Assembly (NCBI GenBank): GCA_022841745.1
Contig: JALHQW010000002.1
Coordinates: forward strand, 118,520-182,519
Direction of reading: 5' to 3'
Length of the DNA: 64,000 nt
Source: Saprospiraceae bacterium
GTDB lineage: Bacteria > Bacteroidota > Bacteroidia > Chitinophagales > Saprospiraceae
Positions 4,021-6,203 of this stretch are shown here, piece by piece. The stretch's first letter is position 1. Each line of letters begins with the position of its first letter. The position numbers were made by a program, and so were the translations under genes. The notes beneath the pieces were generated by a model that was given only the letters and a program-made list of their open reading frames with translations, was not told where the DNA came from and searched no databases.

Positions 4021-4109
4021 ATACATGGTTAGCAGGGTTTTTTGGTTAAATGATGCACGAATTGCGGATGTACCGCCAAAAAATTTACTTTTGGGCAAAA
4101 CATTTCACC

Positions 4110-4991
4110 ATGAAAAAAACAACCACCCGCCGCACCGCCATGAAGAACATCGCCCTTGGCACCGCCACCGCACTTGCGCTACCCAGCCTCCGGGCCACTG
4201 ATTTGTCATTCCCGAAGGGAACCTCCACCGTCAGCCGTTTCAATCACAGCGTCTGCCGATGGTGCTTTGGTTCCATGAAATTGGAAGAACTTGCGGAGCA
4301 AGTGAAGCCGATGGGCATCACCTCTATTGAACTGACCACGCCCGATGAATGGCCTATCTTAAAAAAATACGGCCTGACCTGCGCCCTTGGCTCGCATCCT
4401 GACCAGAGCCTCAGTGATGGCTACAACCAGCCGGGCCTTCACGAGATGCTCAACAAACGCTATTTCGACCTCGCCCAAAAAGCTGCCGATGCGGGCATAC
4501 CAACTATCATCGTCTTTTCCGGCAACCGCAAAGGCTTGGATGACAAATTGGGTGTGGAGTTCTGTGCAAAGGGCATCGAGCCATTGGCTAAATATGCTGA
4601 AAAGCTTGGCATCCAAGTAGTTATGGAACTATTGAATAGCAAGGTGAACCACCCCGACTACCAATGCGACCATACCGAATGGGGCGTGGAACTGGTGGAG
4701 AAGGTCGGCTCGCCCAATTTCAAGCTGCTATACGACATCTACCACATGCAAATCATGGAAGGCGACGTGATTGCCACCATCAAAAAGCACAAGGACCACA
4801 TCGGCCACTACCACACCGCCGGGGTGCCGGGCCGCAACGAGATTGATGAAACGCAGGAACTATACTACCCCGCCATCATGCGGGCCATCGCCGACACGGG
4901 CTACAACCGCTACGTGGCACAGGAGTTCATCCCCAAGGCAAAGGATGGCATGGCGTCGTTGAGGAAAGCGGTGGAATTGTGCAATGTTTAA
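4110..4991 (+). CDS. Hydroxypyruvate isomerase-like TIM-barrel protein with twin-arginine leader
   Basis: 293 residues, sugar phosphate isomerase/epimerase superfamily, closest in pattern to hydroxypyruvate isomerase (Hyi). Diagnostic segments are LLYDIYHMQIMEGDVI, a following HIGHYHTAGVPGRNE and a late QEFIPK. The conserved Glu (VMELLN), Asp (YDIYH), His and Glu (AQEF) are the usual metal ligands of this barrel. The N-terminus TTRRTAMKN followed by a hydrophobic stretch ending LPSLRA looks like a Tat signal, so the enzyme is probably periplasmic. I place the start at 4110 rather than 4050 because a TAnnTTTG-type -7 element (TACTTTTG, 4086-4093) lies between the two ATGs. The stop codon (4989-4991) lies inside the first palindrome of the following array. 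Confidence 0.85.
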   Translation: MKKTTTRRTAMKNIALGTATALALPSLRATDLSFPKGTSTVSRFNHSVCRWCFGSMKLEELAEQVKPMGITSIELTTPDEWPILKKYGLTCALGSHPDQSLSDGYNQPGLHEMLNKRYFDLAQKAADAGIPTIIVFSGNRKGLDDKLGVEFCAKGIEPLAKYAEKLGIQVVMELLNSKVNHPDYQCDHTEWGVELVEKVGSPNFKLLYDIYHMQIMEGDVIATIKKHKDHIGHYHTAGVPGRNEIDETQELYYPAIMRAIADTGYNRYVAQEFIPKAKDGMASLRKAVELCNV

Positions 4992-5322
4992 TTCCGTCGA
5001 ATTCGATGGAATTAAAGGCATCGAATTCGAGGCGTTTAATTCCATGCGGCTGCATGGAATTGGGTTAATCCCTTCGAAATCGCAGGGATTAGAATTCGAG
5101 GTGATTAAACTGGTCGAATTCGACCAGTTTAATCTAATGTGGTGGAATTCCACCACAATAAAGTCTGATTTTAATGGTAATGAATTCGTTAGGTTTAGAC
5201 CGTTCTAATTCTATCGAATTCGATAGAATTAGGTTTAATTTGGTGGGATTGCAACAAATCGAATCTAAAAAAAATTGCCTTCCCAAGATTCTAATCACAT
5301 CGAATTCGATGTGATTAGAATC
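4987..5322. repeat. Chain of GAATTC-centred palindromes upstream of the KilA-N gene
   Basis: The 345 bases between the isomerase and the KilA-N gene are almost entirely palindromes. With GAATTC at the centre: 4987-5016 (30 nt, one mismatched pair), 5006-5045 (40 nt, two mismatches, sharing its arms with its neighbours), 5103-5134 (32 nt, perfect), 5138-5157 (20 nt, perfect), 5205-5232 (28 nt, perfect) and 5287-5322 (36 nt, perfect). Weaker copies are centred at 5094 and 5184. Two more without GAATTC are at 5038-5061 and 5066-5091. The outer arms are often TTTAAT/ATTAAA or CTAAT/ATTAG and the core is usually TCGAATTCGA, while the bases between differ from copy to copy. Most copies read in one forward frame as (F/S)N-x-x-EF-x-x-I(K/R), the motif encoded by the palindrome inside the KilA-N gene. 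The first copy overlaps the stop codon of the isomerase gene. Confidence 0.9.
5287..5322. promoter_or_regulatory. Perfect 36-nt palindrome 14 bp before the KilA-N start; candidate operator
   Basis: Arms GATTCTAATCACATC and GATGTGATTAGAATC flank GAATTC without a mismatch. The inner 26 bases match the palindrome inside the coding sequence (5534-5565) except at one position. Position and symmetry suggest an operator for a dimeric DNA-binding protein, most simply the KilA-N protein itself; that is inference. Confidence 0.55.
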
Positions 5323-5336
5323 CATACAACTTCATA

Positions 5337-6203
5337 ATGGCAAAATCGCATACATCCTTAAAAGTTGACAATTTTACCATTAGGCTTTACAACGTCGAAA
5401 AGGAAGACTACTTTTCACTTACAGACATGGCCAAGAAGTCCAGCGCCAGAACGGAAATCGTTATCCAAAACTGGATGCGTGGAAGAAACACGATTGAGTT
5501 TTTAGGGCTTTGGGAAAGCCTGAACAACCCAAATTTTAATCACATCGAATTCAATGTGATTAAAAGCAAAGTGGGGCTAAACACTTTTGTGCTGACAGTC
5601 AGCGATTGGGTCAAAAGCACTAATGCAATAGGTATCCAAGCAAGTGCAGGTCGTTACGGCGGCACCTACGCCCACAAGGACATCGCCTTCGAGTTCGGCT
5701 CATGGCTGAACCCCTCGTTTAAGTTATTGATTATCAAAGAATTCCAACGCCTCAAAACCGACGAATCCACCCGCCTCGGTCTCGACTGGAACCTCAAGCG
5801 GCAGCTTGCCAAGGCCAATTGGCACATCCACACGGAGGCGGTGCGGGAGCACCTCGTGCCCATCATTGACTGGAACACCCGCCGGGAAGCCTACGCACAG
5901 GCCAGCGAGGCTGACCTACTCAACCTCGCCCTATTTGGCATGACGGCCCGTGAGTGGAAAGCCGCCAACCCCGACCTATCCGGCAATCTTCGTGACCATG
6001 CCTCCACCGAGCAACTGCTCGTGCTGGCCAACCTCCAATCGCTCAATGCCAAGCTGCTGGAATGGGACAGCCCTAAAGACCAGCGCCTCGAAATCCTGAA
6101 CAAAACGGCAAGGGAACAAATGGAAATCCTTGTGAACACCCGTGCCGTGCAGAACATAGGACAATTACAGGAGGGCGGCAACTCAGGGCTAATAGAAGGT
6201 TGA
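5337..6203 (+). CDS. KilA-N domain DNA-binding protein
   Basis: 288 residues. The KilA-N domain spans about residues 15-115, recognisable by SLTDMAK, NWMRGRNTIEFLGLWE, TNAIGI and GRYGGTYAHKDIAFEF. A family-specific C-terminal part follows (IKEFQRLK, then ASEADLLNLALFGMTAREW and a helical tail to 288). KilA-N is a predicted DNA-binding fold first noticed in phage and large DNA virus proteins; the targets of the bacterial members are not known to me. There is no signal peptide, so it acts in the cytoplasm. Residues 67-76 (FNHIEFNVIK) are encoded by a near-perfect palindrome, and the upstream region is a chain of related palindromes, one ending 14 bp before the start. The ATG at 5337 is the only good start before the domain. 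Confidence 0.85.
   Translation: MAKSHTSLKVDNFTIRLYNVEKEDYFSLTDMAKKSSARTEIVIQNWMRGRNTIEFLGLWESLNNPNFNHIEFNVIKSKVGLNTFVLTVSDWVKSTNAIGIQASAGRYGGTYAHKDIAFEFGSWLNPSFKLLIIKEFQRLKTDESTRLGLDWNLKRQLAKANWHIHTEAVREHLVPIIDWNTRREAYAQASEADLLNLALFGMTAREWKAANPDLSGNLRDHASTEQLLVLANLQSLNAKLLEWDSPKDQRLEILNKTAREQMEILVNTRAVQNIGQLQEGGNSGLIEG
5534..5565. repeat. Intragenic 32-nt palindrome encoding FNHIEFNVIK
   Basis: Arms TTTTAATCACAT and ATGTGATTAAAA flank CGAATTCA; only the pair C5546/A5553 is not complementary. A single change AAT to GAT (Asn to Asp) at codon 73 would make it perfect. The sequence lies in frame inside the KilA-N domain and matches the promoter-proximal palindrome at 5287-5322. Confidence 0.85.

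Follow-up and report, generated by a model that had tools for sequence, protein, structure and literature searches.

A variable palindrome inside KilA-N genes as the probable target of the protein that they encode

What is a row of long palindromes doing in front of a KilA-N gene, and why does one more palindrome lie within the gene itself? The question is raised by a stretch of 64 kb from the genome (8.43 Mb) of a Saprospiraceae bacterium, hereafter called the window, whose positions serve as coordinates throughout. In it, a sugar isomerase-like gene (4050-4991, forward strand) is followed by the row of palindromes and by a gene on the same strand for a KilA-N protein of 288 amino acids (5337-6203), inside which the further palindrome is found (5534-5565). 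A preliminary description of the locus had seen in the row a possible library of operators for a family of paralogues, a reservoir for recombination into the gene, or a mobile palindromic element. After comparing the KilA-N genes of the same genome with those of its relatives, we conclude that the protein most probably binds the palindrome inside its own gene. We also consider it probable that the reading as a whole applies, namely that a site carried in the coding sequence would let the gene silence itself, that the KilA-N domain would form a cassette of reader and target, and that the upstream row would consist mostly of relic operators.

The palindrome within the coding sequence

The window holds only four perfect palindromes of at least 18 nt, whereas 30 dinucleotide shuffles gave 0 to 2 each, and all four that had been reported (20, 28, 32 and 36 nt) are present, at 5138-5157, 5205-5232, 5103-5134 and 5287-5322, respectively. 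An exact GAATTC centre with a long paired stem was found in six upstream copies and in one inside the gene, so that the "at least eight" of the preliminary description are reached only by counting a decayed copy at 5173-5196 (GGTAAT-GAATTC-GTTAGG, read in the sequence and aligned in congeners). The sequence TCGAATTCGA, with at most one mismatch, occurs 10 times in the window versus 1.5 expected.

The proposed link to KilA-N genes was borne out in the genome itself, which has 18 KilA-N matches: a degenerate palindrome pattern gave 14 matches on the forward strand of the 8.43 Mb, 12 of which lie in or beside KilA-N genes (seven of these at the window locus). With only two matches away from such genes, the dispersal that a mobile palindromic element would leave is not seen, and this candidate was rejected. 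An internal palindrome (score ≥ 9) is present in 8 of the 14 genes of a first KilA-N subfamily and in 3 of the 4 genes of a second one. If up to three mismatches are allowed, the window's own 20-mer has two occurrences in the genome, one just ahead of the start codon and the other within the coding sequence. Two minor observations belong here: one paralogue (L018, C4:126277-126672) is interrupted by a TAA stop, and one palindrome-like pattern match (L025, C23:47822-47845) lies on a contig without a KilA-N match, as a possible relic or by chance.

Relatives were taken from four samples: (a) 40 genomes of the genus, family, and order (own genome included), with KilA-N genes in 21; (b) genome contigs, as the best 80 of at least 572 confirmed relatives; (c) viral contigs, as the best 80 of 105; and (d) nine annotated plasmid and phage regions. 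These are nearest relatives rather than a random selection, and many of the labels belong to metagenome bins; the labels include Bacteroidota, Verrucomicrobia, Clostridia, Proteobacteria, Methanosarcina, Woesearchaeota, the staphylococcal phage EW, and streptococcal satellite phages. The internal site was examined at one fixed place of the alignment, which in the window gene falls between codons 71 and 72, in 185 genes of less than 95% identity, and the variable arm was defined as base pairs 4-9 from the centre. In the window gene the palindrome measures 32 nt, has the arms CACATC with one mismatch, and spans codons 66-76, overlapping the part that encodes a predicted helix (residues 69-78).

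Across the 185 genes, the arms of one and the same gene are paired at 5.31 of the six positions, compared to 2.56 for left arms matched with the right arms of other genes. All six pairs are perfect in 107 genes, which carry 38 different arms, while synonymous codon choice alone would predict 1.34 such genes. The residues themselves are also of a kind that permits a palindrome in 132 of the 185 genes (shuffled mean 23, maximum 36 in 500 shuffles), and the best palindrome elsewhere in the same genes scores 2 to 8 (149 genes). Read as DNA, codons 66-76 are a two-fold symmetric site whose arms vary between genes yet stay paired. The element thus occupies one codon position in KilA-N genes of bacteria and archaea, and the locus is no local accident. 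The GAATTC centre, exact in most copies of the window, is not essential, being present in 121 of the 185 relatives and replaced by other centres in the second subfamily. The shared reading (F/S)N-x-x-EF-x-x-I(K/R) that had been noted also occurs, but as a by-product, because any copy of the element read in that frame yields the motif; variant copies of a coding segment are therefore not needed to account for it, and a reservoir of coding copies was rejected for the same reason.

Palindrome arms and the residues of the recognition helix

The window protein, presumably a DNA-binding protein of the winged-helix type that probably acts as a dimer, matches the KilA-N domain (PF04383) with an E-value of 4e-19 (68.9 bits, against a curated cut-off of 23.8). 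Its predicted model (mean predicted local distance difference test score, pLDDT, of 84.5) has helices at residues 28-32, 39-47, and 69-78, and the first two stand in what we take to be the place of the helix-turn-helix (HTH) in the KilA-N and APSES folds. Covariation with the arms was measured in 160 genes, among gene pairs of equal overall identity, as the agreement of each residue when the arms agree. The arm-linked residues lie mainly at 31-51 and 85-90, led by 41, 85, 45, 88, 36, 42, 37, and 44, with a lesser patch at 122-126; in the window these comprise codons 36-45, at the start of the predicted recognition helix (5442-5471), and the second patch at codons 85-90 (5589-5606). Residues 55-65, which adjoin the palindrome, have no link to the arms, whereas residue 41 agrees in 384 of 431 same-arm pairs (70 expected). 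A comparison of 27 arm-switch pairs with 32 same-arm pairs, each gene being used once per set, gave the same picture: the residues differ in 89% vs. 3% of the pairs at position 41, 85% vs. 6% at 44, 56% vs. 0% at 45, and 81% vs. 16% at 85, while residues 1-30 differ equally (9.1 vs. 9.2 differences per pair). When 18 pseudo-arms were taken from elsewhere in the gene, their mean excess at these arm-linked residues was -0.09 to 0.075, compared to 0.461 for the real arms. As residues had been found and tested in one set, the data were also split, the residues being learned on the genome contigs (73 genes) and scored in the rest (87 genes): the nine learned residues score 0.272 vs. -0.008 for the other residues, a value reached by none of 20,000 random residue sets, and the second half on its own is led by 41, 44, 40, and 45.

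Individual residues go with individual bases. K44 is accompanied by G at arm position 4 in 26 of 26 genes and R44 in 16 of 17 (G4 overall in 59 of 107 genes), Q44 by A4 in 17 of 22 (A4 overall in 33 of 107), and D45 by G at arm position 5 in 13 of 13; the pairs K/R44-G, Q44-A, and D45-G look like known contacts. Coupling is strongest at arm positions 3-5, which lie 5 to 7 bp from the centre. Corresponding bases of the half-sites are thereby separated by 9 to 13 bp, roughly one turn of the DNA helix, a spacing that would be expected for an HTH dimer on one face of the DNA. At the level of sequence, this is the appearance of an autoregulatory repressor: the HTH residues 41, 44, 45, and 85 covary with a palindromic site. 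Paired arms, the covariation between arm and helix, and a like element in the second subfamily are the reasons why we consider it most probable that the protein binds the internal palindrome.

Several results weigh against this conclusion. At least one arm pair is missing in 78 of the 185 genes, and from some of them the element has disappeared. At residues 52-65 and 78-83, too, switch pairs show more differences than same-arm pairs (6.4 vs. 2.2 per pair), which fits an exchanged block, so linkage adds to the covariation signal. Certain pseudo-arms are themselves strongly linked to other residues (81-82 with residue 51), S44 has no base preference (8 G, 7 A), and in the split residue 85 was confirmed, whereas 88 and 90 (hardly confirmed) and 126 were not borne out; the genes are moreover related, and 18 arm types are common to both halves. 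Where genes lack the internal site, the arm predicted from the helix was compared with the neighbouring palindrome: L008 agrees (Q44 with CCCATC), L007 does not, and L049 and L073 are ambiguous.

If the conclusion holds, the protein bound at the internal site would stop the polymerase within the gene and so silence it. Such a block would act on transcription whichever promoter it started from upstream, as would be useful to a gene found in some records behind host genes (ybeY, pyrF, isomerase) or on phages beside an integrase. A start-proximal copy, where one exists, could in addition cover the start region or allow looping. The window has such a proposed operator, a perfect palindrome of 36 nt with the arms CACATC (5287-5322), 14 nt before the start codon at 5337 and 245 bp from the internal copy, from which its inner 24 nt differ by one base; 34 nt of it are identical in the own genome and three aligned congeners, in which the flanks have diverged. 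An upstream operator with the gene's own arms does not hold as a rule of the family, a further point against the proposed scheme: among the 106 genes whose arms are intact, a perfect own-arm copy within 160 nt upstream was found in 5 (L076 and four orthologues that carry CACATC) and a weak one in 2 more, 9 of the 106 rank in the best 5% for an own-arm upstream site (about 5 expected), and in six genes (L003, L020, L028, L032, L097, L152) the nearest upstream palindrome has arms unlike the internal one.

The upstream array and the exchange of the KilA-N domain

The row between the two genes of the window begins with a palindrome of 30 nt (one mismatch, arms TCCGTC/TCCATC, 4987-5016), which overlaps the next one of 40 nt (two mismatches, arms GGCATC/CGCCTC, 5006-5045), in agreement with the earlier remark that neighbours share arms. 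A third of 26 nt has two mismatches, the centre GAAATC, and the arms CCCTTC (about 5066-5091). It is followed by the perfect palindromes of 32 nt (CTGGTC, 5103-5134) and 20 nt (GTGGTG, 5138-5157), the decayed copy at 5173-5196, the perfect palindrome of 28 nt (TCTATC, 5205-5232), one with the arms TTGGTG that is decayed in the window and perfect in G006 and G001 (5237-5260), and finally the start-proximal palindrome.

The isomerase (Pfam PF01261, TIM barrel, E 9e-24) allowed the locus to be followed in the genus, as it was found (E ≤ 1e-60) in 9 of 14 genomes, own included, and is directly followed by a KilA-N gene in all nine. The C-terminal domains of these KilA-N proteins track the isomerase in their relatedness and the KilA-N domains do not. 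Compared to the five genomes with CACATC, G013 is 85-89% identical in the C-terminal domain and 54-56% in residues 31-92 outside the palindrome, and G012 is 79-85% and 42-44% identical, respectively; the contrast is smaller in G003 and G005 (68-72% vs. 51-57%). Between G013 and the CACATC genomes, nucleotide identity is about 50% over codons 121-132 and exceeds 90% over codons 133-144, with a sharp break near codon 132. The part kept between types with differing KilA-N domains corresponds in the window to the C-terminal domain from about codon 133 (5733-6200). Elsewhere, L176 and L185 have near-identical flanks around a replaced stretch from about codon 31 to 102 and differ in their arms. These alignments show that, within the genus, the KilA-N domain downstream of this isomerase gene was replaced on more than one occasion, and in this respect the suggested recombination into the gene had foreshadowed what was found. 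With reader and target in one cassette, recombination would move lock and key together.

The palindromes also differ between these genomes. G003 and G005 (isomerase 58-59% identical to that of the window) have TCCGTC inside the gene and no array, and G012 (78%) has an array that starts with a TCCGTC-like copy and ends with GTGGTG as the last type before the start codon, its internal site being lost. G013 (86%) has a single good palindrome type, TCTATC, before the start codon and also inside the gene. In the window, G001, G006, and G011 the array continues with TCTATC (decayed in G006) and then TTGGTG before it closes with CACATC, the type also carried inside these genes, and G004 has CACATC only. 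The start-proximal arms equal the internal ones in all six genomes that have both at this locus, five with CACATC (including the window, with one mismatch in its internal site) and G013 with TCTATC. TCCGTC, GTGGTG, and TCTATC, which stand in or next to the gene in these relatives, recur farther upstream in the window. Matching start-proximal and internal arms, together with the relatives' arm types upstream, can be read as the mark of successive cassettes, each of which would have left its start-proximal operator behind; with less certainty, then, the array would consist mostly of operators of former specificities, the older ones farther from the gene, although some members are possibly still in use. 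Not everything fits such a succession: CTGGTC and GTGGTG differ in order in G006 and G011, a second CACATC copy lies farther upstream in G011 and half a copy in G006, G013 has one good palindrome only and G012 no intact internal site, and decay does not follow distance, since TTGGTG is decayed in the window while older types are perfect.

The chief alternative, which we regard as rather unlikely, is that the array is a working set of operators through which KilA-N proteins of other elements control the gene, in cross-regulation or as a means to sense elements that come in. Several members have remained perfect and change symmetrically between species, the order of the array is not strict, and the six genes with foreign arms at their start-proximal palindromes would be in line with it. 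Likewise, 7 of 11 array arms tested (TCCGTC, TCCATC, GGCATC, CTGGTC, TCTATC, TTGGTG, CACATC) are known as perfect internal arms in the sample, but this count carries little weight because a chance match to a known arm is expected for 23% of arms with similar composition and some of the seven come from genes of this locus. Against it, the KilA-N gene is also present where only CACATC is left (G004) and where no array is seen (G003 and G005), and, apart from CACATC, the array's arms do not recur in the 13 paralogues that were read in the own genome. The comparison of array arms with those inside paralogues, which the preliminary description had called for, thus went against its library of operators: operators come close to our best reading of the array, but operators for the genome's present paralogues are unsupported and were rejected as a candidate.

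The exchange of domains with their sites leads to a broader proposal, which we advance tentatively and hold to be more doubtful than the scheme given at the outset. The gene would be a self-describing regulator, in which the DNA that codes for the DNA-binding domain is also that domain's target, each gene declares its specificity in its own sequence, exchange of the cassette changes the specificity and leaves former operators behind, the array records past specificities, and the drive is the avoidance of cross-silencing among many copies on phages, satellites, plasmids, and chromosomes. No two arms within one genome are alike (39 genes, 12 congeneric genomes listed), compared to 2.5 pairs expected (P 0.055), which is suggestive only of arms being unique within a genome.

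Other explanations, known systems and context

A second alternative, which appears improbable, is that the palindromes are products of mutation and are not maintained by selection. In such quasi-palindrome correction, one arm would serve as template for its partner in a hairpin of the nascent strand, a change in either would spread to both, and the array would be passive. Symmetric double changes between species do occur in the noncoding array (AAACTGGTC..GACCAGTTT in the window vs. AATCTGGTC..GACCAGATT in G006), as does a symmetric change at the centre (GGAATTCC in G006 vs. GCAATTGC in G001), and the process may operate in addition. It leaves unexplained, however, why helix residues 20-30 codons away follow the arms, why the codon position is fixed across relatives from many phyla, and why 34 nt of the start-proximal copy are unchanged in four genomes.

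We find it still less probable that the covariation is one of protein packing, the palindrome-encoded helix touching the recognition helix and the DNA symmetry having another cause. The arms themselves encode residues 69, 70, 73, and 74 in helix 69-78, which counts against our conclusion in that DNA and protein effects are tied and part of the covariation could be packing. On the other hand, noncoding start-proximal copies have the same arms (CACATC, TCTATC), residue 44 partly tracks base 3 across different residues at 69, and L008 follows the code without an internal site, even if L007 misfits. The second subfamily, furthermore, has its element in another frame with other residues. There, 12 of the 17 frames examined have an internal palindrome (score ≥ 8); L009, which is the same gene as L001, was not counted again, and neither was the second reading frame of L059 or of L070, in each case a piece of the same gene as the first. 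Nine of the 12 share the motif RYxxxxx(I/N) (L001, L037, L043, L059, L064, L070, L071, L072, L115) and have palindromes of 24-34 nt, seven perfect and two with one mismatch, in a frame other than that of the first subfamily; the perfect ones are centred on GGAATTCC, CGAATTCG, CAGATCTG, or GCGATCGC. Compared by eye, their recognition-helix residues also go with the arms (N with TAC in 3 of 3, A or G with TAT in 6 of 6, D where the next bases are GGGA in 4 of 4); the other three genes were left out of this comparison, as their arms are of another build. Few as nine sequences are, the second subfamily argues for reading at the DNA level rather than packing.

The least probable explanation is that the element works as an mRNA hairpin (e.g., a translational switch or RNase site) and the protein binds RNA, since, even though the transcript could form a stem with an AAUU loop and mismatches at the centre (CAA/ATG, GAT/TTC) are tolerated as a loop permits, G-U pairs are not preferred (20 G.T vs. 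43 A.C mismatches at arm positions 4-9 of the coding strand, related genes being counted repeatedly), copies outside coding sequence are found before start codons as well as, in L007 and L073, just 3' of the stop codon, and the one-turn spacing and the K/R-G and Q-A pairs suit double-stranded DNA.

The self-carried site most resembles, by analogy, an autorepressor with an intragenic operator joined to a system with exchangeable recognition domains. Like gal OI and lac O2, the site would be a dyad operator in coding DNA that may be coupled to another close to the start codon, but unlike them it would lie in the repressor's own DNA-binding domain, at a family-wide codon position, with arms that covary with the recognition helix. 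The stoperators and immunity groups of phage L5 are similar in having repressor sites in transcribed regions, as possible roadblocks, and many diverged repressor-operator pairs; L5 has many sites across its genome, whereas the present family has a single one within the gene of the presumed repressor, and the specificity domain is swapped along with it. The parS site in spo0J of Bacillus subtilis is likewise within the gene of the protein that binds it but is nearly invariant, in contrast to the hypervariable arms described here. HsdS of type I restriction shares the conserved frame with exchangeable recognition modules, yet its module does not carry its own DNA target, whereas reader and proposed target are on one stretch of DNA here. 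Rickettsia palindromic elements are also palindromic DNA read in frame inside genes, but they insert in unrelated genes across the genome; here the copies are homologous in one family, fixed in position within it, and nearly confined to its loci in the own genome, as the 12 of 14 forward-strand matches indicate. Paired changes on both arms also differ from the signature of diversity-generating retroelements.

No description of palindromes inside KilA-N genes was found in the literature that was covered (titles and the beginnings of abstracts, with PMC12813430 and PMC12737573 in part; subscription journals and preprints lay outside). To our knowledge, coding DNA that unites a reader with its target in this way has no precedent. 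If the reading is right, hundreds of KilA-N genes at least (at least 572 relatives were confirmed) carry their own binding site, and raw sequence, without binding experiments, would suffice to work out how this fold recognises DNA, a code that could then be tested cheaply. Mobile regulators would have a simple route to switch specificity while keeping self-control, which would help to explain 18 KilA-N genes in one genome, and one locus would perhaps hold an ordered record of past regulator specificities.

A concrete mechanism would then also be at hand for the PDC-S22 family. In PADLOC, PDC-S22 is a single-gene phage defence candidate. The window protein matches its profile over residues 1-276 (E 2e-116), as do L091 and L114, and matches phrog_2657 (transcriptional regulator) with an E-value of 7e-46. 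Co-occurrence of PDC-S22 has been reported in Streptococcus suis genomes (PMC12813430). A defence role of the KilA-N family can be inferred from this label as a candidate only. In line with the label, a KilA-N gene lies about 3 kb downstream of the annotated Qat anti-phage genes qatC and qatD on a Xenorhabdus plasmid (L246, 1087-6819). On an Alistipes plasmid (L250, 5992-8883), an ORF6N gene and a gene for a putative phage abortive infection protein lie close downstream of the KilA-N gene. A search of solved structures by sequence gave a single chance match (E 0.29), and the fold search gave Deinococcus DdrC (E 2e-4, but with a TM score of 0.28) and, weakly, the PCG2-DNA complex (E 1.8).

Further records held minor observations. 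On a Saprospira grandis plasmid (L253, 1-3107), the 3' end of pyrF and the 5' part of the KilA-N gene are present as an exact tandem duplication in which the second KilA-N copy is complete; a mobile unit at pyrF had been considered and was rejected, because an exact tandem duplication is uninformative on integration. Palindromes directly after a KilA-N stop codon include a perfect one of 40 nt with the arms CCTCTC in L014 (5495-5534; C20:98494-98533), where the internal site is decayed, and one of 46 nt with the arms CTAGTC in L073. Finally, a different perfect palindrome of 68 nt (TTCGAGAGGAGGGGTTATC...) lies near the KilA-N gene of L013 (5181-5248), and an imperfect relative of 66 nt about 744 nt upstream of the KilA-N reading frame of L032, in another genome; the two probably belong to another repeat family.

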